NCBI GenBank assembly: GCA_919902505.1
Contig: CAKKRE010000002.1
Coordinates: forward strand, 1-64,000
Direction of reading: 5' to 3'
Length of the DNA stretch: 64,000 bases
Source: Nitrospiraceae bacterium
GTDB lineage: Bacteria; Nitrospirota; Nitrospiria; Nitrospirales; Nitrospiraceae
Shown: positions 4,100-48,419 of the stretch, piece by piece
Layout: every line of letters begins with the position of its first letter
How positions within the stretch are numbered: the first letter of the stretch is position 1
Made by a program: the position numbers and the translations under genes
Notes under the pieces: model-generated
Told to the model about the DNA's origin: nothing
What the model saw: the letters and a program-made list of their open reading frames with translations, nothing else
The model's database searches: none

Positions 4100-4384
4100 A
4101 TGGAAATGTCAGAGGAAGTATTCAAACGGCTGTATTCGGTTAGAGAGGCGGCTCGATACCTCGGTATCAGCCAGTGGGCAGTCCGGCACCTCAATTGGTC
4201 CAGCAAACTGCCCTGTGTGCGGCAGGGACGGCGGGTCCTATTCGATATTTACGATATGGACCGGTTTATCGAGAACAATAAGCGGGAGGGGCATCATGGG
4301 GATGATTTATCGACGCAAGAAACGCGATCCGACGACAGGGACTTTGGCCGAACAGGGCCCATATTGGATGAAGTATTACGTTGA
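4100..4384 (+). CDS. Excisionase-like helix-turn-helix protein
   Basis: The 94-residue protein contains YSVREAARYLGISQWAVRHLNWSSKLPCVRQGRRVLFDIYDMDRFIE, which matches the winged-helix MerR/AlpA/Xis class of excisionase DNA-binding domains. The ATG at 4100 follows AGGGGGG at short spacing; ATG 4109 is an alternative. The 3' end overlaps the integrase start by about 90 bases in another frame, so the two are translationally linked. It probably directs the integrase toward excision. Confidence 0.7.
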   Translation: MEMSEEVFKRLYSVREAARYLGISQWAVRHLNWSSKLPCVRQGRRVLFDIYDMDRFIENNKREGHHGDDLSTQETRSDDRDFGRTGPILDEVLR

Positions 4385-5582
4385 GGGCAGACCCATCCAA
4401 GAAAGCACAAGGACGAGTGATAAGGACCGAGCTAAACGGATTCTCCAAATTAAGGAAGGGGAGATAGCTGCAGGGCTATATCGTGGGCCCAATATCGACA
4501 GAATACGCTATGAGGACCTGGCTGCACTCGTAAAACAAGATTACGAATTGAATAAACGTAAGACCGGACGGCGGGTCAATGAGTATCAGAACCATTTAGA
4601 GCCATACTTCAGAAAGATGCGGATATCGGCCATTACGACTGAACGAATCAAAGCCTATATCGTGAAACGTCAAGGGGAGGGCGCAGCAAACGGGACCATC
4701 AACCGCGAAACAGGATTTCTCAAACGGATGTTTCGGATGGGCTTTCAACAAACACCCCAGCTGGTCGCTCGGGTTCCCCATATTCCCCAGCTCAAGGAAT
4801 ACAACATTCGATCAGGATTCTTCGAACACGAGGATTTTCTCGCCCTTCGTGGCGCATTACCTGATTATGCCCAGGTTGCAGCTACGCTCGCCTACTATAG
4901 CGGGATGCGAATGGGGGAGGTCTGCTCACTGCAATGGCGGCAAATCAATTGGACGGAGGGAAAGCTGTTTCTGCAAGCCCAGGACACCAAAACCAACACG
5001 CCCAGGGTTCTGTACCTGACGGGGGATCTTTACCGCGTTCTGTTGGCTTGGAAGACTCGCTGCGACCTCAAATGGTCGGGTTGTTCGTGGATCTGCCATC
5101 GTGGAGGAATCCGCCTACAGAGCTTGAAGCATTCTTGGCGGAAGGCATGCGAGAGGGTCGGCCTCGGCGGAATGGTGAAAGACGAGAAGAAAAAGCACTT
5201 GGTATGGGTAGGTAGAATCCCACATGACTTCCGTCGCACTGCTGTTCGCAATATGGTGCGGGCTGGAGTGCCTGAGAAGGTGGCGATGTCCATTTCCGGC
5301 CATAAGACTCGAAGCGTGTTCGACCGGTACAACATTGTGAACGAGCGGGACCTTGAACAGGCGGCGCGTTCGCTGTCTGCGTACTTCGAGCGTCAGACGG
5401 TTACACTTACGGTTACACTCGCAGAACTGCGAGGGGAGAGTAGTGGCTCTGTAAGCCGCCAACCGGTTGATTCGTCAGTGGAGTTTATGGAGCTGGCGAG
5501 AGGAATCGAACCCCCAACCGGCGGTTTACAAAACCGCTGCTCTGCCATTGAGCTACGCCAGCCCGCGAGATCAGGTACCTGA
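4296..5582 (+). CDS. int: Tyrosine recombinase (integrase)
   Basis: The 428-residue protein has an arm-binding N-terminus (YRRKKRDP), a SAM-like core-binding domain (about 85-190) and a catalytic domain with Arg205 (SGMRMGEV), His310 and Arg313 (HDFRR), His336 (SGHKTR) and the nucleophile Tyr345 (FDRYN). It is therefore complete. The start at 4296 has GGGAGGG just upstream; earlier starts read through the xis gene. The last 30 or so residues (from MELARGIEPP) are antisense tRNA-Thr and flanking DNA. In the excised circle the frame would instead run on to 216, giving 437 residues. Confidence 0.9.
   Translation: MGMIYRRKKRDPTTGTLAEQGPYWMKYYVEGRPIQESTRTSDKDRAKRILQIKEGEIAAGLYRGPNIDRIRYEDLAALVKQDYELNKRKTGRRVNEYQNHLEPYFRKMRISAITTERIKAYIVKRQGEGAANGTINRETGFLKRMFRMGFQQTPQLVARVPHIPQLKEYNIRSGFFEHEDFLALRGALPDYAQVAATLAYYSGMRMGEVCSLQWRQINWTEGKLFLQAQDTKTNTPRVLYLTGDLYRVLLAWKTRCDLKWSGCSWICHRGGIRLQSLKHSWRKACERVGLGGMVKDEKKKHLVWVGRIPHDFRRTAVRNMVRAGVPEKVAMSISGHKTRSVFDRYNIVNERDLEQAARSLSAYFERQTVTLTVTLAELRGESSGSVSRQPVDSSVEFMELARGIEPPTGGLQNRCSAIELRQPARSGT
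5398..5418 (+). repeat. Right pair of CGGTTACAC repeats (candidate integrase arm sites)
   Basis: CGGTTACAC occurs at 5398-5406 and 5410-5418 with the 12-base period seen at 272-292. It lies inside the integrase coding region, 70-90 bases from the core site. See the left pair for interpretation. Confidence 0.5.
5488..5532. repeat. attR: 45-bp core repeat inside tRNA-Thr
   Basis: Identical to 95-139. It covers the 3' part of the intact tRNA gene through the anticodon loop, the usual crossover region for this class of integrase. The next base differs (A here, C at 140). Confidence 0.88.
5488..5562 (-). tRNA. trnT: tRNA-Thr (anticodon TGT)
   Basis: Read on the minus strand, the acceptor GCTGGCG (from 5562) pairs with CGCCAGC. 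The D arm has TAGCTCAATGGCAGAGCA. The anticodon stem GCGGT/ACCGC encloses TTTGTAA, giving TGT. The T arm contains GGTTCGATTC. CCA is encoded (5488-5490). The element inserted at its 3' side, and the 45-bp repeat runs from the CCA end to the anticodon loop, so the gene stays intact after insertion. Confidence 0.95.
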
Positions 5583-5685: not shown

Positions 5686-5866
5686 TGTAGGATCTGATGG
5701 CTTAGTTATGCAGGCCATCCTTACTTTCACTTGAATAAAGTTTCAATTCCCAATAAGCTGATTCTGTGTTCAATTCTTCGACGAGCGCGTTGTTTCTCGC
5801 AGTGCGTTGGTCGCCCTTATTTAGCCGAACCTGATTTTTTGGTCCCCTCAGAGAGGAGTGCCCTTG

Positions 5867-7282
5867 ATGAGCCAGTCACATATTCTCGTGATTGATGATG
5901 ATCCTGCTGTGCGTCAAATCTTGGCGGAGACGCTCACCGGTGAAGGCCATCAGGTAACGGTCATGTCCAGTGGCCTGGAGGGAGTAGAGGCTGTCAAGGA
6001 TCAGCCTGTGCATGTGGTGCTGACGGATCTCCAGATGCCGGGGATCGATGGATTGGAAACCATTGATCGAATCTCAAAAATCGACTCCAAGATTATTGCG
6101 ATTGTCATGACGGGGTATGGGACGGTCGACTATGCGGTACGGGCAATGAAAGCCGGTGCGTTTGATTTTATTACCAAGCCGTTCGAGCCCGATACCGTGG
6201 CGGTAGTGGTCCGAAAAGCATTGGACGTCTACAAGTTGAAGCAGGAGAACCATCTGCTTCGAAAAGCTGTGCGAGATCAATATCGTCTGGAGCATCTGGT
6301 GGGGACGAGTGCCCCGATGCGCATGGTGCTTGATTTTGTCGAAAAGGTGGCTGATAGCGACAGTACAGTGCTGATCGAGGGCGAGAGCGGGACCGGCAAG
6401 GAATTGATCGCGCGTATGTTGCATTTCAACAGCATGCGGAGGGAACGTCCGCTGGTCCCGGTCAACTGCGGGGCCATTCCAGAAACCTTGTTGGAGTCCG
6501 AACTGTTCGGGCATGAGAAGGGGGCCTTCACCGGAGCGGCCCATACGCGCTTGGGGCGATTCGAACTGGCTCATGGCGGCACCATCTTTTTGGACGAGGT
6601 CGGGGAGATGAGTTTGCCGTTGCAGGTCAAACTGCTACGGGTGTTACAAGAGCGGTGCTTTGAGCGGGTGGGCGGGACAAGGACGATCAATGTCGATGTG
6701 CGTATCATCGCGGCCACGAATCAGGATTTAGCACAAGCTGTTCAAGAGCGCCGGTTCCGACAAGACTTGTATTACCGGCTGCACGTGATTCCCATTCACA
6801 TTCCGCCATTGCGGGAGCGCCGTAGCGATATTCCGTTTTTGGTCAACCATTTCATCGCCCAGTTTAATCAATTACGGCGGACAGAGATTCTAGGCATGGA
6901 GCCTGATGCGTTAACCCGCATGATGGAAGAAGAATGGCCGGGGAATATCCGGGAACTCGAAAACATGATCGAACGTCTCTGTGTGTTGCAGAAACGGGGC
7001 ATGATCACCATGGGCGACTTGCCTGAGCGGCCGGTCAAAATGAATGTCGCTAAGGGAGTCGAGTCGCCTGAGCAGTTTATTCGCTTTTCGGAAGACGGGA
7101 TCAATTTGACCAAAGAACTCGAACACTATGAAAATAGGCTTATTGGGGAAGCGTTGCGAAAGGCCAATGGAATTACCAGCCGAGCCGCACAGTTGCTTCA
7201 AGTGAATCGAACCACACTTGTGGAAAAACTCAAACGGAAAGGATTTGATCCCAAGACTCACGGGTATTCGATTCAAAACTAA
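5867..7282 (+). CDS. Sigma-54-dependent response regulator (NtrC family)
   Basis: The 471-residue protein has a receiver domain with phospho-acceptor Asp54 (LTDLQMP), an AAA+ domain with Walker A GESGTGKE and the sigma-54 contact motif GAFTGA, and a C-terminal Fis-type HTH (TSRAAQLLQVNRTTLVEKL). ATG 5867 is chosen over GTG 5858 because AGGAG lies eight bases ahead. No histidine kinase is adjacent; the nearest is FlrB, two genes on. It may be a second flagellar activator beside FlrC or serve another system. The 130-base gap before the TPR gene suggests its own transcript. Confidence 0.88.
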   Translation: MSQSHILVIDDDPAVRQILAETLTGEGHQVTVMSSGLEGVEAVKDQPVHVVLTDLQMPGIDGLETIDRISKIDSKIIAIVMTGYGTVDYAVRAMKAGAFDFITKPFEPDTVAVVVRKALDVYKLKQENHLLRKAVRDQYRLEHLVGTSAPMRMVLDFVEKVADSDSTVLIEGESGTGKELIARMLHFNSMRRERPLVPVNCGAIPETLLESELFGHEKGAFTGAAHTRLGRFELAHGGTIFLDEVGEMSLPLQVKLLRVLQERCFERVGGTRTINVDVRIIAATNQDLAQAVQERRFRQDLYYRLHVIPIHIPPLRERRSDIPFLVNHFIAQFNQLRRTEILGMEPDALTRMMEEEWPGNIRELENMIERLCVLQKRGMITMGDLPERPVKMNVAKGVESPEQFIRFSEDGINLTKELEHYENRLIGEALRKANGITSRAAQLLQVNRTTLVEKLKRKGFDPKTHGYSIQN

Positions 7283-7413: not shown

Positions 7414-9636
7414 TTGGATGATTCCAGAAAGGGCACAGGACTTGCTGATTTGCCCCCTGTGCAATACCGATCTTCGCCACAACAACCCGTCAGGATCCGT
7501 ATAGGTCTGGTATTTTTCCTGGGAAGCCTGTTCCTCGCTGGGGGCTCTTCTGCCATGGCTGCCGGTGGGTCTTCGACGATGCGACAGGAATTACCTGCCA
7601 TGATGCCTGAACCGTCGGAATTGGTTCGAGGCACACTGCCGGATCCTGGGCCTCGTTTCGAACGGCTGGCTGAGAATGCTGCATGGGGTCAGTTTGAAAA
7701 GGGAGTGACCCTCTACAAACAGGGGCAGTATCTCGAGGCGCGGCTTCACTTCACCAACATGCTTCGAGAGCATCACGAAACACCCCTTCGATCCTCCATC
7801 CAGGCGTTTCTGGCAGAGAGCTCATTGAAGAGCAGCGCAGAGGAACTCAGGCCGCTGGAGATCATCGATCAATACAAGACGCTGATACGAGAGGATCCCC
7901 AGTCGACGAATGCGAAGCGAGCCGCCTGGAGAATCGGCGATGTGTATCGTGTGGAGGGCTGGTACCAGGAGGCGCAGATCGCCTACCAACATGCGCTCAG
8001 TCTCTCTGAGCGAGATTCCTACGATGCCAATCGAGCCATGCTCGGTCTGGGCTATGTCTTTCGCGGCATCAAGAGTTGGAAGGACAGCATACAGACGTTT
8101 GATCACGTCCTGAAGCGAACCACCGATCCCACGTTGCTGGTGTCCGCGTCGCTGGGACAGGCCCACAGCCTCTATCGAATGGGACGGATCAAGGACGCCG
8201 ATGCATTGTATGAAAGCATCAGCAGCCGCTGGCCTGCCGCTCTTCGGGCGGATCCGTATGCGTTACTGCGTTACGCGGATACGGCGGGAGAAGCGCAGCG
8301 CGGCCCGATCATGCGGGAACAACTCCTCCATTTCTACAATCTGTATCCCTCCAGGCCCGAGAATCCTTTTGTATTGATGCACCTGGCCGACAGTTACAAA
8401 GAGGCCGGGCGATGGGAAGATGCGAGCATTTTCTATGCGGCGTTGTTGAGCCAGTATCCGGATTCGAAGATTATCCCCACGGCCAAGCTCCGGTATGCGG
8501 ATGCGCAGGAGCGTCTCGCTCCTGAAGGCGAGGAAATTAATCTCCGGCACACCATCGCCGCGCATCTGGCCAATGTGCCCCTCAAGCCCGGTGAAATGCT
8601 CAGTCCGCGCCAGTTGTTCGAACGCAGCGCCAAGCAATATGAAGACTCACCGGTTGGAAGCGAGGCGTTATTTCATCTCGGGGAGGCGTTGGAGCGGGCA
8701 GGAAAACGTGAAGACGCGCTGAAAGCCTACGAGCAAGTGGTCCAGCGGGCCGGGAAATTTGAGAACGATCCCTGGCCGGAGAAGAGCGGGGCGCAGCTTG
8801 TGAGATTTCTGCGCCCCCGGCTGGAAGCGGCACTCAAAGCAGACGACGATTTTGAGATCATCAACCTGTTCCACCGTAACGGTCCGTTTGCCGATCGGGT
8901 GTACGCCGGTACGGAACTGCTGCTCAAAGTGGCCGAGGCGCATCGTCGGCTCGGATTTCCCATCGAATCTGCGCGGCTCTTTCAGTCGTTGATTCGAGAC
9001 TCGAAAGCCGAGGGCTTTCACGAAGTCGCCTTAATGGGGCTCGGCGATAGTTACTTGGAGCAAAAAGACATGCGCGCGGCCCGGGCCGTCTTCGAGCGGT
9101 ATCGGTTGCAATTTCCCGCCGGCCGGTTCGCTGGACAGGCTCTGCTTGGAATCCTGACGTCGTTCGAGGGCGAAGGAAACACGTCCGGGTTGGTGAAGCT
9201 TGGAAAGCAGTGGTTGATACACAACCCGCGCCATCCAGACCGCGCATTGGTGCAGCTGAAGTTAGCCGATGCCTTGAGGCAAGCAAAACAGGATGCTGAA
9301 GCCGCTCCCCTCTATGAGAGCGTACTCAAGGCGGGGATGGACCTGTCCGCATTGGACCGGCTGCGATATGCCGATGTGTTGGCAAGACTGAATCGTCAGG
9401 AGCCGGCGCTGGCCCTGTATAAGCAGGCATTGGTTGCGGGGTTGGAGCCTGAACAGGCAGCCTGGGCGCAATTTCAGATCGTACAGTTGGCGCGGGGAGT
9501 GAAGCGTGAAGAATTCGCAAGGAACGGGCTTCGCGCACTGAATGAGAACAGCGATAGCCTCGTTCGGCGTATGGCCGCCGTGTTGCAGACCCAGTTGTCT
9601 GAGCCCACTCCCGCCGCAGGAGGCAAAAAACGATGA
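7414..9636 (+). CDS. Secreted or periplasmic tetratricopeptide-repeat protein
   Basis: The 740-residue protein has a hydrophobic segment at about residues 30-50 (IGLVFFLGSLFLAGG) ending near AMA, so it is probably exported. After it come many helical repeats of TPR type, for example FEKGVTLYKQGQYLEARLHF and SEALFHLGEALERAGKREDALKAYEQV, across nearly the whole length. The only in-frame start before the signal is the TTG at 7414, or TTG/GTG codons shortly after, and no strong ribosome-binding site is visible, so the start is unsure. Its stop overlaps the flrB start by four bases, tying it to the flagellar two-component operon. Confidence 0.75.
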   Translation: MDDSRKGTGLADLPPVQYRSSPQQPVRIRIGLVFFLGSLFLAGGSSAMAAGGSSTMRQELPAMMPEPSELVRGTLPDPGPRFERLAENAAWGQFEKGVTLYKQGQYLEARLHFTNMLREHHETPLRSSIQAFLAESSLKSSAEELRPLEIIDQYKTLIREDPQSTNAKRAAWRIGDVYRVEGWYQEAQIAYQHALSLSERDSYDANRAMLGLGYVFRGIKSWKDSIQTFDHVLKRTTDPTLLVSASLGQAHSLYRMGRIKDADALYESISSRWPAALRADPYALLRYADTAGEAQRGPIMREQLLHFYNLYPSRPENPFVLMHLADSYKEAGRWEDASIFYAALLSQYPDSKIIPTAKLRYADAQERLAPEGEEINLRHTIAAHLANVPLKPGEMLSPRQLFERSAKQYEDSPVGSEALFHLGEALERAGKREDALKAYEQVVQRAGKFENDPWPEKSGAQLVRFLRPRLEAALKADDDFEIINLFHRNGPFADRVYAGTELLLKVAEAHRRLGFPIESARLFQSLIRDSKAEGFHEVALMGLGDSYLEQKDMRAARAVFERYRLQFPAGRFAGQALLGILTSFEGEGNTSGLVKLGKQWLIHNPRHPDRALVQLKLADALRQAKQDAEAAPLYESVLKAGMDLSALDRLRYADVLARLNRQEPALALYKQALVAGLEPEQAAWAQFQIVQLARGVKREEFARNGLRALNENSDSLVRRMAAVLQTQLSEPTPAAGGKKR

Positions 9637-10922
9637 CAGCGCGCGATGCCGAAGCATCGAACAACGATCTGCTGACACGTGCGTTCCACGACTTTGACCA
9701 GGCTGCCACCGTCCTTCAACAGTCGTATGACGCGTTGACGACACGGCTGCAGCAGATGGATCTGGAACTCGCGCAAACCAATGCCAGTTTGCGCGAACAT
9801 CTTCGTGAGACAGAAGAGATGCGGGCCCATGTGACGGCGGTGTTGGAGTCGCTGGATACGGGTGTGATCGTAGCGGACTCGCAGGATTCGGTCGTACGGT
9901 GCAATCACGCCACGGAACGCCTGTTGGGAGTTCCACAAGCCAGCCTCAGGGGGCGTCGGGCGACGGAGGTGTTGGAAGAGATCCGGAAAGACCATGGCGA
10001 GTATCCGCTGGTATTGCCGACAGGTGTGACCATTGCCCTCTCGCAAAGCGACTTGACCGATGAAACCGGGAGTTTGATCGGCAAACTGATGTTGATCCAT
10101 GACGTGACCCACATTCGACAGCTTGAAGACCGTTTGCAACGGCGCAATCGCCTGGAGGCCATGGGGCAGATGGTCGGTAACATCGCGCATGAGATCCGGA
10201 ATCCCCTGGGGAGCGTCGAATTGTTCGCGTCGATGCTGCGCAAGGATCTGCGCGATCAGCCGCATCTGCGGACGTATGCGGAGCATATCTCCGTGGCGGT
10301 GCGGGCCATGGACCGGTTGTTATCGAACCTGCTCGTCTATACCAGACCGGACTGTTCGAGGTTGGCATGGCAGGAGACGGAGTCGCTCATTCGGGAAGTA
10401 CTCACGCTGGCAAGCCATGCCATGTCACCGGCTTCGATCGTGGTCCGTTGCGAGGTCGATCCCCGCGTTCCGAAGATTTGGTGTGACGGCGGGAAAATGA
10501 AACAGGTGCTGTTGAATCTTGTTTTGAACGCGGTCCAGGCCATGCCCGAAGGCGGCAGCCTGACAGTGTCCGCTCGTACGGCTCCGGAACACATCTCAGA
10601 ATCGCCCGCCATCCAACTCACGGTCAGTGACACCGGCACGGGGATTCCGCCCGAGCTGCAGTCGCGGGTATTCGATCCGTTCTTTACCACGAAAGACCAT
10701 GGGACGGGATTGGGGCTCGCCATCGTCCATGCGTTGGTCGAGGCTCATCACGGCCGCATCGATGTAGAGAGCAGGCCGGGGCATGGGACCTCATTTGTCA
10801 TGACATTGCCCCAGGGCTCGATACAGCCGGCAATAATGTCTGCGCGAAACGCCGCGTTGGTCGGCCGGTCCGTGCACACCCGTCCGATCGCGAATGCAAC
10901 CGAAGAGGAGACCTACGAATGA
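9633..10922 (+). CDS. flrB: Flagellar sensor histidine kinase (FlrB/FleS type)
   Basis: The 429-residue soluble kinase has an N-terminal helical part, a PAS domain (about 65-160, HVTAVLESLDTGVIV), a HisKA domain with His186 (GNIAHEIRNPLGS) and an ATPase domain with N box NLVLNAVQAMP and G boxes DTGTGIP and GTGLGL. No membrane segment is seen, as in FlrB and FleS, so it senses a cytoplasmic signal such as export-apparatus assembly. It starts in the ATGA overlap with the TPR gene and overlaps flrC the same way. It should phosphorylate the next gene product. Confidence 0.85.
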   Translation: MTARDAEASNNDLLTRAFHDFDQAATVLQQSYDALTTRLQQMDLELAQTNASLREHLRETEEMRAHVTAVLESLDTGVIVADSQDSVVRCNHATERLLGVPQASLRGRRATEVLEEIRKDHGEYPLVLPTGVTIALSQSDLTDETGSLIGKLMLIHDVTHIRQLEDRLQRRNRLEAMGQMVGNIAHEIRNPLGSVELFASMLRKDLRDQPHLRTYAEHISVAVRAMDRLLSNLLVYTRPDCSRLAWQETESLIREVLTLASHAMSPASIVVRCEVDPRVPKIWCDGGKMKQVLLNLVLNAVQAMPEGGSLTVSARTAPEHISESPAIQLTVSDTGTGIPPELQSRVFDPFFTTKDHGTGLGLAIVHALVEAHHGRIDVESRPGHGTSFVMTLPQGSIQPAIMSARNAALVGRSVHTRPIANATEEETYE

Positions 10923-12337
10923 GCGTGCAACAGGATTTACACGGCCCCTCCGCCACCTCCGAAGAAGCTCGGATGGTCCTGATCGTCGATGATGAACCCT
11001 CGATGAGAACGGCCTTGTCTGAAACCGTCCGCAGATTGGGCTATCAAGTCCGGGGGGCGATCGACGGCGTCGACGCGATCGAGCAGATGGAACGCGTGAA
11101 ACCCTGGCTGGTGGTGACCGATTTGAAGATGCCGCGCCTGACCGGCCTGGAACTCGTCAAGGCCATCAAACACAAATCCCCCCAGACCTTCATTGTCCTG
11201 ATGACCGCCTACGGCACGGTGGAGACAGCGGTGGAAGCGATGAAATATGGCGCGAATGACTACATCTTAAAGCCCTTCTCGACGGACCTCTTGGAACGAG
11301 TGATTCTCAACCTGCAGGCAACCACGACGCCGGACGAGCAGGAAGGGCCCGCCACACTGGAAGCGCGCGCAATTTTGACGCAGGACCCCGGCATGATCCG
11401 CCTGCTCACCACGCTGGAGGGCGTCGCGGCGAGTCAGGCGACCGTGCTGATCAGCGGCGAGAGCGGGACCGGGAAGGAACTTCTGGCCCGCTACATCCAC
11501 GCGCGCAGTCCGCGCGCGCATCGCCCTTTCGTGGCGTTGAATTGCGCCGCACTCCCGGACAGTCTCCTCGAGAGCGAGCTGTTCGGCCACGAACGCGGCG
11601 CGTTTACCGGAGCCATTCAGAAAAAATTAGGCAAATTCGAAATGGCGCATACCGGGACGCTGTTTCTCGATGAAATCAGCGAAATGAATTTGGGCTTGCA
11701 GTCCAAACTGTTGCGCGTCTTGCAAGAGCGTGAAGTCGATCGTATCGGTGGACGGGAGCCCGTTCCAGTGAATATTCGCGTCATCGCCACAACCAATCGC
11801 TCCCTGTATCACGAAGTCACCCAGGGCCGATTCCGTGAGGATCTGTTCTATCGGCTGAACGTGTTTCCCGTCACGGTGCCTCCGCTTCGTGATCGGTCGG
11901 GCGATATCCCGCTTCTGGCGAGACATTTCCTTCGCTCCTCGGCACAGCGAAACGGGCTCACCATGCCGACGTTGTCCGAGCGAGCCATCGCCGATCTCCA
12001 GCGGCGTCCCTGGAAAGGCAATGTCCGTGAACTCGAAAACGTCATGGAACGTGCCATCCTGGTCGCCACCGGAGGGGCGGTGGATGTGGATCATCTCATG
12101 CCGGGGGATGGCACGGTGCCGGTGCGGGAAGTAGAGGCGGCAGACGCCCTCGTGACTCCCTCCACACATGGATCACTGTGGGAGATGGAGCGGGATCTTA
12201 TTTTCAAGACCCTGGCCCGCGTGAAAGAAAACCGCACGCATGCGGCGAAGGAATTGGGGATCAGTATCAGAACGTTGCGGAATAAATTGCGAGAGTATCG
12301 CGACCTGGGATACCAGGTCGAGGCGGAGAAGTCCTGA
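10919..12337 (+). CDS. flrC: Flagellar sigma-54 activator (FlrC/FleR type)
   Basis: The 472-residue protein has a receiver domain with Asp68 (VTDLKMP), an AAA+ domain with GESGTGKE, GAFTGA and the arginine-finger region, then a Fis-like HTH (THAAKELGISIRTLRNKL). It is translationally coupled to flrB (ATGA). The sigma-54 sites before flgB, fliK, fliL and flgF are its likely targets. The two activators in this window are paralogues; this one is the flagellar candidate because of the kinase pairing and the position just before flgB. Confidence 0.87.
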   Translation: MSVQQDLHGPSATSEEARMVLIVDDEPSMRTALSETVRRLGYQVRGAIDGVDAIEQMERVKPWLVVTDLKMPRLTGLELVKAIKHKSPQTFIVLMTAYGTVETAVEAMKYGANDYILKPFSTDLLERVILNLQATTTPDEQEGPATLEARAILTQDPGMIRLLTTLEGVAASQATVLISGESGTGKELLARYIHARSPRAHRPFVALNCAALPDSLLESELFGHERGAFTGAIQKKLGKFEMAHTGTLFLDEISEMNLGLQSKLLRVLQEREVDRIGGREPVPVNIRVIATTNRSLYHEVTQGRFREDLFYRLNVFPVTVPPLRDRSGDIPLLARHFLRSSAQRNGLTMPTLSERAIADLQRRPWKGNVRELENVMERAILVATGGAVDVDHLMPGDGTVPVREVEAADALVTPSTHGSLWEMERDLIFKTLARVKENRTHAAKELGISIRTLRNKLREYRDLGYQVEAEKS

Positions 12338-15355: not shown

Positions 15356-16351
15356 ATGAATAAAGAACTGTCGGGCGCACAAAAAGCGGCGATCTTACTT
15401 CGAGCCATCGGTGAGGAAGCGGCTGCTGCGGTCATGAAGACCCTCGACCCCAAGGATATTCGCAAGCTCGGGAGCTTCATGAAAGAGACCGCGAACATTA
15501 CGAAGCAGGAAGAGGACAGCGTGATCGCCGAATTCGAGCAGGCGAGCTCATCCGGCGAGGTGCAATTCGAAGGACGCGAATTCATGGAAGCCATTCTGAA
15601 GAAAGCGCTGGGCCCTGAGAAGGCCGCCAGAATGATGGAGTCCTTGAATACGAAGACCTATCCCGGGATTGACGCCCTGAAGTGGGTCGATCCCAGAACC
15701 GTCGCGCAGATTCTCAAGATCGAACATCCCCAGACGATCGCCGTCTGCCTGGGACAAATGGAAGCCGAACAGGCCAGTGCCGTGCTGGCGTTGTTGCCGG
15801 TACATCTGCATGCCGACGTGTCGCTGCGATTGGCGACGATGCAAGAAGTGCAGCCGGAAGTGCTGTCCGAATTGAGCGATAGTTTGCAGGACATTCTGTC
15901 GGCTTCGATGGGTATGTCGAGCATGTCGGTCGGCGGCGCCGAGCTGATGGCCGATATTCTGACGCGTGTGGATAAGAACACCGAAGGGGCCATTATGGCC
16001 AAGATCACCGAACGCGATCAGGCCCTGGCAGAAAGCATCCGGGCGCTGATGTTCGTCTTCGATGACCTGGTGGAACTGGATTCCCGCGGCATGCAGGAAC
16101 TCATGAAGGAAATCAGCAAAGAAGACCTCCCGGTCGCGCTTCGTGGCGCCACCCCGGAGATCAAGGAGAAGTTTCTCAAAAATATGTCCAGCCGCGCGGC
16201 CGACATGCTCAAGGACGACATGGAAACGCGTGGGCCGGTCAAGGTATCCGATGTCGAGAAGGCGCAGCAGAACATTCTCAAAGTCTGTCGCAAGCTTGAG
16301 GAGGAAGGTCGCATCGTGCTCGGGGGCGGGGGAGGCGAGGAGTTGCTGTAG
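15356..16351 (+). CDS. fliG: Flagellar motor switch protein FliG
   Basis: The 331-residue protein has the armadillo-like N and middle domains (EHPQTIAVCLGQMEAEQASAVL) and the C-terminal torque domain with charged residues (VFDDLVELDSRGMQELMKEI, then RGPVKVSDVEKAQQNILK). FliG transmits the force of stator ion flow to FliF and switches rotation together with FliM. It starts 12 bases after fliF, and its stop directly abuts the fliH start. Confidence 0.95.
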   Translation: MNKELSGAQKAAILLRAIGEEAAAAVMKTLDPKDIRKLGSFMKETANITKQEEDSVIAEFEQASSSGEVQFEGREFMEAILKKALGPEKAARMMESLNTKTYPGIDALKWVDPRTVAQILKIEHPQTIAVCLGQMEAEQASAVLALLPVHLHADVSLRLATMQEVQPEVLSELSDSLQDILSASMGMSSMSVGGAELMADILTRVDKNTEGAIMAKITERDQALAESIRALMFVFDDLVELDSRGMQELMKEISKEDLPVALRGATPEIKEKFLKNMSSRAADMLKDDMETRGPVKVSDVEKAQQNILKVCRKLEEEGRIVLGGGGGEELL

Positions 16352-17401
16352 ATGGGAACCGTTGATGTGGGAAGTCGCCTGCCGCAAACGTCGCCCGCGG
16401 ACAATGAGAAGGAACTCGCGCCACGCGCCATTCTCATCGTTGACGACGAACCATCCATCGGCTTCCTCTTGACTGAAATGCTGCAGTCCACGGGGCACCC
16501 GATTCTCACGGCCGGGTCTGTCAGCGAGGCCCTGACGCACCTGAAATCCCGCCCGATCGCCGTGTTGATCGTCGATGTTCAATTGGCCGGAACAGATGGC
16601 ATTGCTTTCTTGCAACAGGCCTTGGAGGTCGATAGCCGTCTGCTCAGTATCGTCATGACCGGACACGGCAACATCGAACTGGCTGTGCGGGCCATGAAAT
16701 CCGGCGCCGCGGACTTCCTCACCAAGCCGTTCGAAGTCGAATTGGTGAGGCAGTCCGTGTCGAGACTGCTGGAGCTGTACCGCCTCAGGCAGGAGAATAC
16801 GGTCCTCACCCGCACCTTGATTCGTTCCGGCAACATACAGTTGCGGACGGTGCCGCTGGCGGATTTCAGCCGCGGCAATCGGCCCTTCGGAACGGATGAC
16901 GTGACCGAGTTCGAGCGGGGCGTGGCGGAGGGGGAAAAGCGGGTCACGGAGCGGGTCACCGCGTTGCGACAACGGGAACAGGCGCTGGTGGCGTCGCTGA
17001 TGGCGCAATTGGAGGGAAGCTGGCGCAATCTGCACGACACCGTGGAAGAGGAAGTCGCATCCCTTTCGTTCATGATCGCGCAGAAGGTCCTGCGCGAACT
17101 GGTGACGGAGAAACGTGAAGTGATCGTGACGCAGGTACGGACGGCACTGGCCCATTTGCATGAAAGCGGGCTTGTCCGGATCCGGGTGCATCCGTCGGAT
17201 CTTTCGCTGCTCGAAGCGTCGCGGGCGGCATTGAGTCAGACTCCGCATGGGCTATTGACTCTGAAATTTGAAACGGATCCCGGTATTAGCCCGGGGGGCT
17301 GTCTCCTGCAGGCGCAGAGCCTCTTGATCGACGCCACGCTGGATACCCAACTGCTGCGGCTCGGTGAAGCCTTGAGAAAGCGGGACGCCGGTGAAGCTTA
17401 G
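16352..17401 (+). CDS. fliH: Receiver-domain FliH fusion (flagellar ATPase stator with REC domain)
   Basis: Residues 25-145 form a complete response-regulator receiver: acidic pair Asp31/Asp32 (IVDDEPS), phospho-acceptor Asp75 (IVDVQLAG), Thr103 (VMTGHG) and Lys125 (TKPFE). Residues 190-349 are FliH-like: a coiled coil (FERGVAEGEKRVTERVTAL), VEEEVASLSFMIAQKVL, VRIRVHPSDLSLLE, and the ending DPGISPGGCLLQ...LIDATLDTQLLRLGEAL. Ordinary FliH is about 230 residues and begins with a Trp-containing segment that docks on FliN/FlhA; that segment is missing here. The gene abuts fliG and overlaps fliI, so the fusion is not an assembly artefact of distant genes. It implies phospho-control of export. Confidence 0.88.
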   Translation: MGTVDVGSRLPQTSPADNEKELAPRAILIVDDEPSIGFLLTEMLQSTGHPILTAGSVSEALTHLKSRPIAVLIVDVQLAGTDGIAFLQQALEVDSRLLSIVMTGHGNIELAVRAMKSGAADFLTKPFEVELVRQSVSRLLELYRLRQENTVLTRTLIRSGNIQLRTVPLADFSRGNRPFGTDDVTEFERGVAEGEKRVTERVTALRQREQALVASLMAQLEGSWRNLHDTVEEEVASLSFMIAQKVLRELVTEKREVIVTQVRTALAHLHESGLVRIRVHPSDLSLLEASRAALSQTPHGLLTLKFETDPGISPGGCLLQAQSLLIDATLDTQLLRLGEALRKRDAGEA

Positions 17402-18698
17402 CGAACGTCTGGAACAAGTCGAACCCTTATCCGTCACGGGCCGGGTGGCCCAAGCCGTCGGTATCGTCATTGAAGCCTCGGGGCCGTTCACCTCTGTCGG
17501 AGAGGTCTGCGAGATCACCCGCGAGGGTGGTCATGGCGCCGTGATGGCAGAAGTGGTCGGATTCCGTGAGGATCGTGTGTTGTTGATGCCGCTGGGTGAA
17601 ATGCAGGGCATCGGACCGGGCAGCCGGGTCGTGATGAAAGGGCACGTGGCTTCGGTGCCGGTCGGCCCGCAGATGTTGGGGCGCATTTTCGATGGACTCG
17701 GGCACCCGCTGGACGGATTGCCGCCGCTGCGCACCGACGTCCAGGTTCCATTGTATGCGCCTCCGCTGAATCCGTTGCATCGCGCCAGAATTACCCAGCC
17801 GGTGGATCTGGGCATTCGGGCGATCAATGCCCTGTTGACCTGCGGCCAAGGTCAGAAAATCGGTGTGTTCGCCGGTTCCGGGGTGGGGAAAAGCGTCTTG
17901 TTGGGCATGATCAGTCGGTATACGCAGGCCGACGTCAGGGTCATCGCCCTCGTCGGCGAACGGGGACGCGAGGTCAAAGAGTTCCTGGAGCGCGACCTGA
18001 CACCGGAAGCAAGGGCCCGCTCGATCGTGGTGGTCGCGACTTCGGATCAACCGCCGCTGGTGCGCATTCGCGGCGCCTTAGTGGCGACGGCTATCGCTGA
18101 ATATTTTCGCGATTGCGGCAAACATGTGTTGCTGATGATGGATTCCCTTTCCCGCCTGGCCTATAGCCAGAGGGAAGTCGGGCTCGCCATCGGTGAACCT
18201 CCGACCACCAAAGGGTATACACCGTCCGTGTTTGCCGTGTTGCCGAAGCTGTTGGAACGGGTCGGACCGGCACAAAGCGGGGGCAGTATTACAGGCCTCT
18301 ATACCGTGCTTGTCGACGGCGACGACCTGAATGATCCCGTCGCGGACGCCGTGCGCTCCATTCTCGACGGACACATTGTGCTCTCGCGTGAACTCGCCGC
18401 GCGCAATCACTTTCCGGCCATCGATATTCTGCAGAGTACCAGCCGGGTCATGCGGGACATTGTCACGCCGGCACACTATGCCGCGGCACGATTGGTCCTG
18501 GAACGCACGGCGCTCTATCGGCGATCTGAAGATCTCATCACCCTGGGCGCGTATAAGCCGGGCACGAGCAAAGACCTGGATAAAGCCGTGTCCGCTCATG
18601 AGGGCATCACGGCGTTTCTGCGGCAGGAGACGAAGCAGTCCGTCGGGTTGTCGCAGTCCATCGATGCCTTGCTGGCGCTGGCAGGAACGATTCAATGA
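17391..18698 (+). CDS. fliI: Flagellar export ATPase FliI
   Basis: The 435-residue F1-beta-like ATPase has Walker A GVFAGSGVGKSVLLG, Walker B region VLLMMDSLSR, and the type III secretion signature PPTTKGYTPSVFAVLPKLLERVG. It hydrolyses ATP to load export substrates and is held by FliH. The GTG start lies 11 bases before the fliH stop, so the two are translationally coupled. The stop overlaps the fliJ start (ATGA). Confidence 0.95.
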   Translation: MKLSERLEQVEPLSVTGRVAQAVGIVIEASGPFTSVGEVCEITREGGHGAVMAEVVGFREDRVLLMPLGEMQGIGPGSRVVMKGHVASVPVGPQMLGRIFDGLGHPLDGLPPLRTDVQVPLYAPPLNPLHRARITQPVDLGIRAINALLTCGQGQKIGVFAGSGVGKSVLLGMISRYTQADVRVIALVGERGREVKEFLERDLTPEARARSIVVVATSDQPPLVRIRGALVATAIAEYFRDCGKHVLLMMDSLSRLAYSQREVGLAIGEPPTTKGYTPSVFAVLPKLLERVGPAQSGGSITGLYTVLVDGDDLNDPVADAVRSILDGHIVLSRELAARNHFPAIDILQSTSRVMRDIVTPAHYAAARLVLERTALYRRSEDLITLGAYKPGTSKDLDKAVSAHEGITAFLRQETKQSVGLSQSIDALLALAGTIQ

Positions 18699-33111: not shown

Positions 33112-33873
33112 ATGATGGACGCTCGAAAAATGTCTGCGGTCAGAAACGCCCCGCGCCGCGTGATTGCGGAAGCGGATCGTGAACGGGTGATTCAAGAATT
33201 CACCCACGTCGTGAAGGCCATGGCCCATCGACTGGCGTTTCGCTTGCCGGCATATATGGACGCGGAAGATTTGATGTCCGTCGGGATCATGGGCCTCATG
33301 GATGCGATGGATAAGTACGATCCGACCCGCGAAGCCAAGTTCAAAACCTACGCGGAGTTCCGTATCCGTGGCGCCATGCTCGATGAAATCCGGTCGATGG
33401 ATTGGATCCCGCGCTCGGTCCACGAGCGGATTACGCTCCTTCAAAAAACCTATTCCGAGCTGCTGCACAGACTCGGACGCCCGCCGACGGACGAGGAAGT
33501 CGGCACAGAGCTGAAGATGTCCGCGGAGGAACTGGACGAATTCCTGACTCGCTCCCGTGGCGCCGTGGTGATCAGTCTGGACGATCTCGGCGTGCAGGAT
33601 GCAGACGGGCATAAGATCATCAGTGTGTTGACCGACTCCAATCAGCCGGATCCGCTCTCGGTCCTGGTGAACGAGCGGGCGCGCCACGTGCTCGAAGCTG
33701 CAATCCAGGATTTGCCGGAGAAAGAACGGCTGGTGTTGTCCCTCTACTATTTCGAGGAACTCACGATGAAGGAGATCGGGCAGGCGCTCAAGGTGACCGA
33801 ATCGCGAGTATGCCAGATCCATTCGAAAGCCATCCTCCACTTGAAAGCGCGGCTCGAACCAGTCGATGTGTGA
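33112..33873 (+). CDS. fliA: Flagellar sigma-28 factor FliA
   Basis: The 253-residue sigma factor has region 2 (AHRLAFRLPAYMDAEDLMSVGIMGLMDAMDKYDP and FRIRGAMLDEIRSMDWIPRSV), region 3 (EEVGTELKMSAEELDEFL) and region 4 (LPEKERLVLSLYYFEELTMKEIGQALKVTESRVCQIHSKAILHLK). It lacks region 1, as usual for FliA. It should read the sigma-28-like boxes before flgM, csrA, and the GGDEF-like, PilZ and HD-GYP genes. FlgM, encoded at 40235, is its anti-sigma factor. Confidence 0.96.
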   Translation: MMDARKMSAVRNAPRRVIAEADRERVIQEFTHVVKAMAHRLAFRLPAYMDAEDLMSVGIMGLMDAMDKYDPTREAKFKTYAEFRIRGAMLDEIRSMDWIPRSVHERITLLQKTYSELLHRLGRPPTDEEVGTELKMSAEELDEFLTRSRGAVVISLDDLGVQDADGHKIISVLTDSNQPDPLSVLVNERARHVLEAAIQDLPEKERLVLSLYYFEELTMKEIGQALKVTESRVCQIHSKAILHLKARLEPVDV

Positions 33874-34033: not shown

Positions 34034-34909
34034 ATGAGTTCGCCACATCAGGACACCAACGATTCGACCGATCCCGCCGGGTCGGATTCGATCGATCTGC
34101 CGTACCGCTCCAGTGACGGAGCGGCCTCCCGACCGTTTGACAGCGCTCGACTTGGCGTCGTGGCTTGTCTCTTGTTCATGGCGGGCGGGTTATATTGGAC
34201 GGCGACCGTGGGGCTGCTGACCATCTCGGCGTTGATGGCCTATCCGGTGATGATCCAGGCCGGCGTGCTTCTGACGCTGGTCATCTTCGGCGCGACCTTT
34301 TGGACCCCGAAAGAGCCACAATCGGATGCGGCGATGATCTCAGGCTCGCTTGAGCCGGGCTCCTGCGCGATGCATACCTATGATTCAGTTACGGGATTAC
34401 CGACCCAGCGCCTGTTTTTCTCTCTCCTGAAGCAGGCGCTGTCGCGTGCTCACAAACATAGCCGGCAGATTGCGCTCCTCGTCATTGAATTAGATCACTT
34501 TTCTCCAAGGATCGACGGGCAGGCACCGATCAATTCCAACCTCATGTACCGGGTCCAGGCTGCGCGTGTGAAGAGCGCCCTGCGCACCGCCGACACGGTG
34601 GCGCGAATTGCCGAACGCACCTTTGTCGTCCTGCTGGATCGGGTCACAGGTCCGGAGGAGGTGTTGGCCATCGCCAGAAAGATGCACCTCACGATATCGC
34701 TGCCGGTCACCCTTGACGGGCACGAACTCTTCCTCACCAGCCGCATAGGGATCAGCCTCTCCAGCCATGACACTGTGGACAGTGATGCGCTCCTCGATGC
34801 GGCCACCCGGGCCGTCGAAACGGCTCGCACCGAAGGGTACGCCCTCTATGGACTCCCCGGTGCAATGGCATCCCCTTCCGTTGATGCGACCTCCACGATC
34901 GCTGCCTGA
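34034..34909 (+). CDS. Membrane protein with degenerate GGDEF domain
   Basis: The 291-residue protein has two membrane helices (about 42-62 and 65-88) and a cytoplasmic domain starting with DSVTGLPTQRLFFSLLKQAL, the usual entry of diguanylate cyclase domains. RVKSALRTADTVARIAERTFVVLLD follows at the position where the active site normally reads GGDEF. Here it is AERTF, so cyclase activity is not expected. It may act as a c-di-GMP/GTP sensor or scaffold. It lies between fliA and flgF behind a sigma-28-like promoter. Confidence 0.75.
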   Translation: MSSPHQDTNDSTDPAGSDSIDLPYRSSDGAASRPFDSARLGVVACLLFMAGGLYWTATVGLLTISALMAYPVMIQAGVLLTLVIFGATFWTPKEPQSDAAMISGSLEPGSCAMHTYDSVTGLPTQRLFFSLLKQALSRAHKHSRQIALLVIELDHFSPRIDGQAPINSNLMYRVQAARVKSALRTADTVARIAERTFVVLLDRVTGPEEVLAIARKMHLTISLPVTLDGHELFLTSRIGISLSSHDTVDSDALLDAATRAVETARTEGYALYGLPGAMASPSVDATSTIAA

Positions 34910-44316: not shown

Positions 44317-47169
44317 CTAACGCGACTGATCCGGGTCTGCCGGTGTGATCTGCCGCTTCAACACGGCGACCAATTGCTGGACCGTACGCTCGAGTTGGGC
44401 GAATAGGGCAGGAGCTTCAGCGAGGGTTCCGAGACGTCCGTTGGCTTCCAGCTGGCTTGCCAGGAGTACGACATCCGGCGCGCACAAATTGCCGGCCGTC
44501 CCTTTGAGGCTATGAGCGGCCTGTTCAAGCGCGACACCGTCCGCCTGCTTGACGGCGACTTCAATCTCCTGGACCATCACCCGTTGACGCTCTAAGAACA
44601 AACGGATCAACTGATCGAACAGTTCGATATCGCCACCGATATTCGCCAGCATGGTGTTCGCGTCGAACACGCTGGCATCGCTTTTGGTCATTTCACGAGG
44701 AGGCGTCGGCGGGGCAATCTGCTCGGAAGTCCCGACCGGGGCCCAGCGTTCAAGAATTTTTCCGAGATCGTCCGTCTTCACCGGTTTCGTGAGATAGTCA
44801 TCCATGCCGGCAGCCTTGCACCGCTCGCGATCACCCGGCATGGCATTGGCGGTCAGCGCAATGATGGGGACGTGGGCGCGGGTTCTGGTCGAGTCGGCTC
44901 GCTGTTCCAGCTCGCGAATGCGCCGAGTCGCCTCATATCCGTCCATCATCGGCATCTGACAATCCATCACGATGACTGAGTAGAGACCTCGCTCAAACGC
45001 CGCCACGGCCTCCTGGCCGTTCGACACGACATCCGGTTGGTACCCGATCCGCTCCAGCATGCGTACGGCCAGTTTCTGGTTTACCACGTTGTCTTCTGCC
45101 ACGAGCACGCGCGGGCGGACTCGTTGTTCGGCCAAGGTATGCCGCGTCACCAAGGTGGGAGCGAGTGCCGGACCCGCATCGCCGCCGGCAGCGGCGGGCG
45201 TAGCCGGCTGCTGCAATCCGAACACGACGCGGAGGCAGCCTTGAAGCTGATCATGCCGGACCGGCTTCGTCAGGTAGGCCGTAAATCCGGCGCGCCGCGC
45301 GCGTTCGGCGTGGCCGGGCTGAATCAACGACGTCAGGACGATCAAGCGCACCCCGGCCCCTTGGCGATGGGTCCTGATGTCCTGGGCGAGTTGCAGCCCG
45401 TCTTTGCCGGGCATCAGCATGTCGAGCACGGCCGCGTCGTAGGGCGCACCGGCTGCAGCGGCCTGTTCCAGCATCTGAATAGCTTCGTCGGCATTGCGCG
45501 CCTGGCCGTCCTGCATGCCCCATCCCGAGACCAGGTGATGAAGGATCGTGCGATTGGATTCGTTATCGTCCACGATCAGAATGCGGCGACCGCTCAACTC
45601 GACCGAAGGCACGATGGCCGGCGCGCAGACCGGCTGCTTCTGAAACGTGGCGGTGCACCAGAAGGTGGTGCCCTGGCCGGGCTGGCTGCGAAGCCCGACT
45701 GTGCCTCCCATCAGTTCGACCAATTGTTTGGAGATCGCAAGTCCGAGTCCTGTACCGCCGTACTTTCTGGTCGTGGAACTATCCGCCTGGGTAAAGGCCT
45801 GGAACAATCGCGCCTGCACCTCTTCGCTGATGCCGATGCCGGAGTCCGTCACTTCGAATTTGATGGTCACACCCGACGCCGTGTCGCTCTCCAGAAAGGC
45901 CTGCAACGTGACTTCGCCGCGCTCGGTGAATTTGATGGCGTTGCCCACGAAATTGGTGAGCACCTGCCGCAGCCGTCCAGGGTCGCCGCGCAACGCGTTC
46001 GGCACGGCGGCATGCACCAGGCCCGTAATCTCCAGGCCTTTGCGCTGAGCGCGTTCCGCGAACTGAGACAACACGTCTTCAACGGTCGTACGCAGGTGAA
46101 AATCGAGCTGCTCCAGCTCCAGCTTGCCCGCCTCGATCTTGCTGCATTCGAGCACGTCGTTGATCAACGAGAGTTGCGCTTCCCCGCATTGCTGAATGGT
46201 ATTCGTGAAAGACCGTTGTTCCTCGGTCAAGGGCGTATCCAACAGTAAACTGGCCATGCCGATGACGCCGTTCATCGGCGTGCGCAATTCGTGTGTAATC
46301 ATCGCCAGGAAGGACGATTTCGCCCGCGCCGCCGCCTGCGCCTGTTGGAGGGCCTGGTCCAGCTGACGGTTGCTTTCGCGGAGACGATCGGCGGTCTCGT
46401 TGAGCGTCCGGTGCGTTGCGTGTATTTCGCCAAGGTCAATGGCGAAGGCTCGCACCAGCCCATGGCTGGGCACCGGACAGAGGGTCCAGCTAAAACAGGC
46501 CTCGCCGCGTACCACGTCCTGGGAGGTCAAGGTTCGTCCCTCCAGCAAGCAGGTGGCGGCAAGCGCGGGGAGATTGTCCGGAAGAATGTCCGGCTTGCCG
46601 GACAGGTCGTACCCGAAGCGACAGAGGATGTCGGCCATCGCCGGATTCACATAGAGAAGATTTCCATCCCGGTCGATTTCGACGATCGGATAGGGGCTTT
46701 CCTCAGCCACTTCGGCGAGACGGTCCCGGTCCTTTTCCAATTCGAATTCACGCGAGACATCCCTCAGGGTCAGCAGAGTGGCCGCGGAGGGAATCCCGGG
46801 GACCCGGAGTTGTTGCCATTCGATCACCGTGGAATTGCCGGCGTCGCCGGCGTCACCTGGGGTTGCCTGGCCGGTGGAGGGCAACGACCCGTCGGGAAGC
46901 GTCCAGATGCCGGTGGATCGAAGCGAGTCGCCTAGATCGATACGTTGCCCGACCAGCTCCGGCAAGGTCTTGCCGATACAGGCGGCTGAAGATCGGCGGA
47001 GCAGGCGCGCGGCCGTGCGATTGGCAAACACCATCGTCTTGTCGTGAGCCACGAGACAGATGCCGACCGGCACGGCATCCCAGAGTAAGGTCAGCGCCTC
47101 TACCGGCATTGCCAGGCCGGCTGAATTCGGAGGCTGTATCCCGCGTGGCTGCTGAGGATGATTCATCAC
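44317..47169 (-). CDS. Hybrid sensor histidine kinase (PAS-PAS-HisKA-HATPase-REC-REC-Hpt, BarA-like)
   Basis: The 950-residue soluble protein has two PAS domains (about 25-130 and 150-260), a HisKA domain with His293 (MITHELRTPMNG), an ATPase domain with GTGLGLAISKQLVELMGG, two receiver domains (ILIVDDNESNR...AVLDMLMPG and VLVAEDNVVNQK...VMDCQMPMMDG) and a C-terminal Hpt domain with His886 (AAHSLKGTAGN). It is a full phosphorelay in one chain, BarA-like in order but without membrane segments. Its start overlaps the HD-GYP stop by four bases, so the two are co-translated. The output regulator is not adjacent; the receiver of REC-FliH is a speculative partner. Confidence 0.88.
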   Translation of the reverse strand: MMNHPQQPRGIQPPNSAGLAMPVEALTLLWDAVPVGICLVAHDKTMVFANRTAARLLRRSSAACIGKTLPELVGQRIDLGDSLRSTGIWTLPDGSLPSTGQATPGDAGDAGNSTVIEWQQLRVPGIPSAATLLTLRDVSREFELEKDRDRLAEVAEESPYPIVEIDRDGNLLYVNPAMADILCRFGYDLSGKPDILPDNLPALAATCLLEGRTLTSQDVVRGEACFSWTLCPVPSHGLVRAFAIDLGEIHATHRTLNETADRLRESNRQLDQALQQAQAAARAKSSFLAMITHELRTPMNGVIGMASLLLDTPLTEEQRSFTNTIQQCGEAQLSLINDVLECSKIEAGKLELEQLDFHLRTTVEDVLSQFAERAQRKGLEITGLVHAAVPNALRGDPGRLRQVLTNFVGNAIKFTERGEVTLQAFLESDTASGVTIKFEVTDSGIGISEEVQARLFQAFTQADSSTTRKYGGTGLGLAISKQLVELMGGTVGLRSQPGQGTTFWCTATFQKQPVCAPAIVPSVELSGRRILIVDDNESNRTILHHLVSGWGMQDGQARNADEAIQMLEQAAAAGAPYDAAVLDMLMPGKDGLQLAQDIRTHRQGAGVRLIVLTSLIQPGHAERARRAGFTAYLTKPVRHDQLQGCLRVVFGLQQPATPAAAGGDAGPALAPTLVTRHTLAEQRVRPRVLVAEDNVVNQKLAVRMLERIGYQPDVVSNGQEAVAAFERGLYSVIVMDCQMPMMDGYEATRRIRELEQRADSTRTRAHVPIIALTANAMPGDRERCKAAGMDDYLTKPVKTDDLGKILERWAPVGTSEQIAPPTPPREMTKSDASVFDANTMLANIGGDIELFDQLIRLFLERQRVMVQEIEVAVKQADGVALEQAAHSLKGTAGNLCAPDVVLLASQLEANGRLGTLAEAPALFAQLERTVQQLVAVLKRQITPADPDQSR

Positions 47170-48419
47170 GAGGGCCCACCTACGGCGGTTTCAAGGTATT
47201 GCGGCAGATCGACATGCTCCTGATTGGGATCCAACGCGCGGATGATCGAGCGCGTCGGCTGATCGGGCGCCTGGTTTTGAAGGTCGACCTCGATCGGATC
47301 CTTCTGATCCTTCCCGTCGGTGCCTCTGATGATCCTGATACGAGGGCGTAACCGGTCTTCATGGTTCAGACCGACCACCAGGGCGCATTCATTCGTATTG
47401 AGCTTGATCAGGCTCCCGAGTGGGTAGACGCCCAGGGCCTTGATGGCGACTTCCACCAGCGTCTTTTCGTACCGGCCTTTTGCTCCAAGCACGAAGAGTT
47501 GCCGGATGGCATCGTGCGGCAACAGGGGGGGGCTGCCATATCGCGCACTGACCAATTCGTCGTAGGTGTCCGCCAACCCCACCAATTGGGCCAGCGTGGA
47601 GAGACCTTCCTGCTTCAGATGTTGAGGAAACCCGCTCCCGTCTTGATATTCATGGTGTTGCGCGATAATGCGGGTGACCGCATCGGGGATCGAGTCCACT
47701 TGAGCCAGTACCGTCGCCGCCAATTGCGGATGCTGCTTCATCAGGACCTGCTCCTGATCGGTCAGGGGAGTCGTTTTTCGATACAGATTGCGCGGGAGTC
47801 GGATATAGCCGATGTCGTGGAGGAGCGCCCCCAGTCCGAGTGCTTCCAGCTCGGCTTCCGTACAGTCGTTTTCCACCGCCAGAATGAGAGTGAGTACGCA
47901 GACATCCATGCCATGGTTGGAGAGGGTGGCGTCAAATCGTCGGACTTTATCCAGACAGAACTGGATCAGCATGGCTTCCGGTTCGGCGACGATTTGCTCC
48001 AGAAGCCGGTTCACAATCGGCTTCAGCGCCGCGATCTTCGGCGGGTGTCCCGCTTCGAGGTCGTTGAAGACGCGTTCCACTGCTGCCGTGGCGTCCCGAT
48101 AGGCCGCCGCCGCCGACACGGCCTGCGGACTGTGGTCGATCGGCTGCGGGGCGACGGCTTCGGCAACGGCCGGCGGCGGTTCATCCGGAGGCGGCACCGC
48201 CTGTGGCTCGGCCGTGGTCGCGGCCCCGACGTCCAGCCCGCGTTCAGTATCGATGGTGACGACGAGGATGCCATGGCGTTTGAGTTGCACGATGTCGCCG
48301 GGATTCGAGACCAACCACTTATGGAGGAGGAACGGGGTTCGGTACCAAGGCTGGTCCAAGCCCGCGATAAACATGCCGACGGTGAGTTGATCGATGGAGA
48401 TGCGTTTTGTCGAGGCCAT
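47166..48419 (-). CDS. HD-GYP-type phosphodiesterase (variant) with DUF3391-like N-terminus
   Basis: The 417-residue protein has an N-terminal region (ISIDQLTVGMFIAGLDQPW) like that found before many HD-GYP domains, an Ala/Pro linker (about 80-110) and an HD-GYP domain with LLHDIGYIRLPRNLY, HHEYQDGSGFPQHL and GLADTYDELVS. HD-GYP enzymes hydrolyse c-di-GMP. Here the Lys of HDIGK is Tyr and GYP is GFP, so activity may be altered. It shares a transcript with the hybrid kinase, and a sigma-28-like site lies upstream on the minus strand. Confidence 0.82.
   Translation of the reverse strand: MASTKRISIDQLTVGMFIAGLDQPWYRTPFLLHKWLVSNPGDIVQLKRHGILVVTIDTERGLDVGAATTAEPQAVPPPDEPPPAVAEAVAPQPIDHSPQAVSAAAAYRDATAAVERVFNDLEAGHPPKIAALKPIVNRLLEQIVAEPEAMLIQFCLDKVRRFDATLSNHGMDVCVLTLILAVENDCTEAELEALGLGALLHDIGYIRLPRNLYRKTTPLTDQEQVLMKQHPQLAATVLAQVDSIPDAVTRIIAQHHEYQDGSGFPQHLKQEGLSTLAQLVGLADTYDELVSARYGSPPLLPHDAIRQLFVLGAKGRYEKTLVEVAIKALGVYPLGSLIKLNTNECALVVGLNHEDRLRPRIRIIRGTDGKDQKDPIEVDLQNQAPDQPTRSIIRALDPNQEHVDLPQYLETAVGGPS

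Follow-up and report, generated by a model that had tools for sequence, protein, structure and literature searches.

In nitrite-oxidising Nitrospira and its kin, FliH, the stator of the flagellar export ATPase, carries an intact receiver (REC) domain. In the window, the whole 64,000-nucleotide stretch of Nitrospiraceae DNA that we analysed, this REC-FliH fusion is encoded by one frame of 349 codons with no interruption, whose ATG abuts the stop codon of fliG and whose 3' end overlaps fliI (Table 1). Domain content and synteny make the protein a FliH, and its N-terminal part has the fold and the residues of a receiver. Pfam places Response_reg at residues 27-135 (E = 8.6e-22, 77.9 bits) and the FliH domain (PF02108) at residues 211-336 (E = 8.2e-20, 71.5 bits against a curated cut-off of 24.1). 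Both matches lie well above their cut-offs, and Pfam gives REC and FliH alone, with no AAA+ or HTH domain in the protein. The five residues named in the first-pass annotation, Asp31, Asp32, Asp75, Thr103 and Lys125, are all present, which bears out its claim of a fusion with a complete phosphorylation site. To our knowledge, no FliH described so far carries a receiver domain, and we found no description of REC-FliH or of a phosphorylated FliH in open-access papers.

The AlphaFold model consists, in order, of a confident REC (pLDDT about 90), a single 30-residue helix (residues 129-158), a disordered arm, a long stalk (residues 186-253) and the FliH C-terminal domain; at a pTM of 0.41, the relative placement of these domains is not predicted. 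The Foldseek neighbours of FliH-REC are NtrX, NtrC1 and DctD, and the C-terminal domain matches the FliH chain 5b0o_E (E = 2e-5).

Table 1. Positions in the window of REC-FliH, its parts and the neighbouring genes discussed in the text.
Feature	Position	Strand	Remarks
RR-A, sigma-54 NtrC-type response regulator	5858..7282	+	head of flagellar cluster; complete REC; by sequence comparison, source of FliH REC
FlrB-like PAS/HisKA/HATPase kinase	9633..10922	+	candidate phosphodonor
RR-B, FlrC-like response regulator	10919..12337	+	overlaps kinase gene
fliG (rotor protein)	15356..16351	+	directly upstream of REC-FliH; named from sequence and synteny
REC-FliH fusion gene	16352..17401	+	349 aa
Receiver domain, NtrC/DctD type, residues 26-124	16427..16723	+	Pfam, AlphaFold, Foldseek
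Asp75 codon	16574..16576	+	predicted phospho-acceptor; kept in 72/72
Alpha5 and linker helix, residues 129-158	16736..16825	+	homologous to REC-AAA+ linker of RR-A and DctD
Arm, mostly disordered, residues 159-185	16826..16906	+	putative relocated FliH docking arm; canonical motif seen only in early-branching relatives
FliH stalk helix, residues 186-253	16907..17110	+	AlphaFold
FliH C-terminal FliI-binding domain (predicted), residues 254-345	17111..17386	+	Pfam; 5b0o_E
fliI (export ATPase)	17391..18698	+	overlaps REC-FliH 3' end; named from sequence and synteny

FliH was detected in 129 of 175 genomes of the Nitrospiraceae (f1), and its frame was read in 77. REC is present on 72 of these 77 FliH genes, in genera g1, g10, g12, g13, g15, g19, g140, g142 and g146; the five REC-less FliH, from g11, g14 and g147, form one clade. 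Within the window's genus, 24 of 25 genomes (the window included) have the fusion, nearly all at exactly 349 amino acids, and the 25th, G016, has no FliH match whatever. Elsewhere in the Nitrospirota, the FliH frames inspected, those of the sister family f3 included, are 170-313 amino acids long and have no REC. The check for the fusion in other Nitrospirota genomes, which had been proposed on the basis of the window, was thus positive throughout most of the Nitrospiraceae but negative in the rest of the phylum. Searches of 398, 247, 246 and 195 genomes from four other phyla (about 1,090) returned no match to a REC-into-FliH fusion, with only a few candidates scored per genome, such that fusions to receivers of another subfamily could escape. 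As a positive control for this search, held-out fusions from g140 and g146 were recovered with E values below 1e-110. In a tree of FliG and FliI, all REC-bearing genera group together, next to the REC-less clade, so that a single gain suffices to explain the distribution; the deciding node has only 42% bootstrap. One assembly (G017) holds two different REC-FliH genes, on contigs C33 and C47, reflecting a second flagellar cluster or a mixed bin.

Because the same fused frame recurs in 72 genomes, a sequencing or assembly error joining two genes, which had been raised as a reason to discard the fusion, is ruled out. We also rejected a separate short FliH made from an internal start, as there is no conserved start with a ribosome-binding site. 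Phosphorylation residues are strongly retained among the REC-FliH sequences, in which pairwise identity of the receiver falls to 36%. Asp75, on whose conservation among homologues the first-pass annotation had staked its proposal, is found in 72 of 72, as is Lys125; position 103 is Thr in 70 and Ser in 2, Asp31 is kept in 69 (2 Glu, 1 gap), and 65 have Phe at the switch aromatic, F122. Asp32 is kept in 62 (7 Ala, 1 Gly, 1 His, 1 gap), and eight of its nine replacements fall in one part of g10. In this part (L062, L063, L064, L067, L077, L086, L090 and L097), Asp32 is replaced by Ala, or by His in L090, while Asp75 and Lys125 stay; since Asp32 is missing there, metal binding by these proteins may be weaker.

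The REC codons are under purifying selection, with a dN/dS of about 0.09. Within the window's genus, the ratios, which are rough as synonymous sites are near saturation, rise from 0.069 (FliH C-terminal domain) through 0.083 (linker helix), 0.085 (arm), 0.088 (REC) and 0.119 (stalk) to 0.34 (N-terminal tail), with REC close to the FliH C-terminal domain. The absence of Asp32 from nine of the 72 proteins and of REC from one clade could be taken as signs of a non-functional, decaying leftover, or of an assembly join, the latter already refuted. However, the frame is continuous in 72 independent genomes, among them single-contig assemblies, REC evolves at the ratio given above, and a conserved internal start for a separate FliH is lacking. 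An artefact or relic is hardly credible.

We asked where the receiver came from. Self aside, the nearest relative of FliH-REC among the genome's 61 receiver matches is that of RR-A, at 113 bits, with the next at 74. In a REC tree built with FastTree, the 39 FliH-RECs sampled all fall into one clade next to the RR-A receivers of f1, and RR-A of f3, the family with unfused FliH, lies outside; support is 0.94 for FliH-REC plus RR-A and 0.79 for the f1 part. Homology to RR-A runs beyond REC into the linker helix (RR-A 'LKQENHLLRKAVRD', FliH 'LRQENTVLTRTLIR'), and among solved structures the nearest in sequence is DctD REC plus linker (1QKK), matching residues 24-156. Homology to both RR-A and DctD through the linker helix points to REC plus coiled-coil linker as the copied unit, and these comparisons indicate that it is a copy from RR-A of the same flagellar cluster. 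FliH-REC and RR-A have diverged to about 40% identity. An origin from CheY was rejected, the nearest relatives being RR-A, NtrC, DctD and NtrX. In one genome (G211, locus L073), the acid pair of RR-A is degraded (VENEEGI), and FliH-REC retains DDE.

Every f1 and f3 cluster examined has one PAS/HisKA/HATPase-type kinase beside RR-B and downstream of RR-A (the f3 locus L106 ends short of RR-A), and for this reason the FlrB-like kinase is our best guess for a candidate phosphodonor to REC-FliH. The identity of alpha1, the kinase-contact helix, relative to that of the rest of REC is 0.80 versus 0.72 in RR-B, 0.55 versus 0.63 in RR-A and 0.48 versus 0.60 in FliH-REC, of which it is the most variable measured part. 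Because alpha1 is far less conserved in FliH-REC and RR-A than in RR-B, RR-B looks like the dedicated partner of the FlrB-like kinase, and phosphotransfer to FliH-REC is conjectural. The alpha1 of FliH-REC is 0.34 identical to that of RR-A and 0.22 to that of RR-B, so there is no shared kinase-contact helix. For the hybrid kinase at 44317-47169, which had been put forward as a second possible donor, we found nothing specific in its favour. This kinase, encoded on the minus strand, comprises PAS, HisKA, HATPase, two receivers and Hpt, and its gene is overlapped by that of a DUF3391/HD-domain protein (HD-GYP-like; 47166-48419, minus strand).

The first-pass annotation also held that the Trp-containing docking segment of FliH is missing from the fusion. 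In Salmonella, the extreme N-terminus of FliH binds FliN and FlhA, with Trp-7 and Trp-10 making these contacts (PMC9114704). Unfused Nitrospirota FliH have instead an N-terminus with a pattern such as (I/V)(I/L)K...V..(F/Y).(L/M)..(L/V); among the 17 with a recognisable motif, Trp precedes it in 5 and is absent in 12, and we rejected a Trp-bearing docking segment as a rule for the phylum. In early-branching fusions, the end of the arm motif lies directly after the REC linker ('HVNAFRLADL' in g19, 'RVTNFQLEDM' in g146 and 'RMSPFQLSHI' in g140; p 0.002-0.016 versus shuffles), and its counterpart in unfused f3 FliH is 'AVHAFEMTEL'. A motif scan gave no convincing match to the canonical arm motif in the window's genus. 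There the arm, residues 159-185, evolves as slowly as the folded domains, and F172 within it is found in 69 of 72 REC-FliH. Because the motif stands behind REC in the early-branching fusions and the segment is constrained in the window's genus, we conclude that the docking arm was probably relocated behind REC and diverged in the window's genus, and was not simply lost. The Trp is therefore absent as claimed, a trait shared with most of the unfused proteins, but the arm region appears to persist. The canonical motif is eroded in the REC-bearing crown genera, and the REC-less sister clade retains it (e.g. L066 'ILKTADAESAKSYQLEPA').

This erosion in genera with REC looks as if REC took over part of the docking, and would suit a structural module in which REC and linker serve as an extra dimerisation or spacer domain, or as a constitutive C-ring docking adaptor, with phosphorylation incidental. 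An NtrC-type linker is a dimer helix, and the variability of alpha1 in FliH-REC is also consistent with such a role. However, the acidic pocket is usually lost from a REC whose role is purely structural, FleQ being an example, whereas Asp75, Lys125 and Thr or Ser at position 103 are essentially invariant in REC-FliH. We therefore regard a structural module as rather unlikely.

Instead, we favour a role for REC as a phosphorylation-dependent switch. In this model, the RR-A REC and its dimerising linker helix would have been duplicated and placed before the FliH docking arm once, in the ancestor of most Nitrospiraceae, and REC would have been kept phosphorylation-competent since the fusion. FliH spokes join FliI to the C-ring (PMC6946799), and by analogy each FliH2 stalk would bear two REC copies at its outer tip, the place at which FliH contacts the C-ring and the export gate. 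The window encodes FliM with a CheY-binding-type N-terminus (LSQEEIDALMGG) and a FliN-like protein, so the usual C-ring partners are present. Once Asp75 was phosphorylated, with the cluster's FlrB-like kinase as the likeliest donor, REC-REC packing would change, as in DctD and NtrC, and the altered packing would change docking or activity of the FliH2-FliI complex. The input to flagellar transcription would then tune export as well. A phosphorylation-dependent REC pair that alters docking or FliI control is the most economical reading; phospho-control of FliH/FliI is plausible from sequence, and the conserved site suggests that the export machine may be phosphorylated directly to control flagellum building. 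We give the whole reading, an RR-A-derived REC that makes FliH a phospho-responsive switch tuning export via FliI docking or activity, a probability of roughly 0.48. Counted against it are the nine of 72 proteins without Asp32, a metal-binding acid, the variable alpha1, the pTM of 0.41 for the model, and the g11, g14 and g147 clade, which keeps its flagellar cluster without REC.

The activity of FlrB/FleS requires the fT3SS, FliF and FliG, yet direct binding to FliF or FliG was not detected (PMC7064773), and REC on the export complex could for that reason also be the reporting element for a kinase of this type. It is doubtful, in our estimate, that the switch extends so far that the cluster kinase phosphorylates REC-FliH at the C-ring, coupling the transcription checkpoint and export via sister RECs and possibly reporting export-apparatus assembly. 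The undetected binding leaves room for an additional factor (PMC7064773) and would equally fit signalling in reverse, with REC-FliH as a phosphate sink or reporter in competition with RR-A or RR-B for their shared kinase, or paired with RR-A via REC, and free versus docked FliH reporting assembly progress to the transcription programme. The apparent descent of the FliH REC from that of RR-A, and the presence of kinase, regulators and REC-FliH in one cluster, lend themselves to this explanation; divergence of the two receivers to about 40% identity and their unshared alpha1 (0.34) do not, and reversed signalling is decidedly unlikely.

Comparison with known systems places the switch reading in context. 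REC-FliH resembles FliH/SctL (YscL), the stator of flagellar and virulence type III export ATPases, in its C-terminal FliH domain, its place in the operon between fliG and fliI, its stalk and its predicted FliI-binding domain, but has REC and linker before the docking arm. With NtrC/DctD-type receivers and linkers (RR-A, 1QKK, 1L5Y, NtrC1), it shares fold, phosphorylation residues, the long alpha5-linker helix and phylogenetic origin, whereas its output is a type III export stator rather than an AAA+ sigma-54 activator with HTH. Similar to CheY and other single-domain receivers on the flagellar switch, FliH-REC would act at or near the C-ring after translation; in contrast to them, it is covalently joined to the export ATPase complex, belongs to the NtrC type, and is presumed to affect assembly, not rotation. 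The FlrBC, FleSR and FlgSR two-component systems likewise have a kinase and NtrC-type regulators in one cluster, but their known outputs are transcriptional, while here the cluster's third REC sits on FliH.

Flagellar export control is known mainly via transcription, chaperones, hook length and c-di-GMP. A phosphorylatable domain in the ATPase stator, conserved in a family of nitrifying Nitrospira, would let a two-component system act directly on a type III export machine. How FlrB/FleS senses export-apparatus assembly is an open question (PMC7064773), for which REC-FliH is a candidate physical link, addressable via one residue, Asp75.

Further genes of the window adjoin those discussed above. 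The gene for a 740-aa TPR protein (7414-9636) separates RR-A from the FlrB-like kinase, whose gene it overlaps. Where the run of flagellar genes ends, a GGDEF diguanylate cyclase gene (34034-34909) comes after that for the flagellar sigma factor (33112-33873). Genes for a Rep-like protein (REP_ORF2-G2P; 223-1290) and a phage-type integrase (4215-5582) immediately precede the flagellar cluster, which suggests that an integrated mobile element adjoins RR-A.
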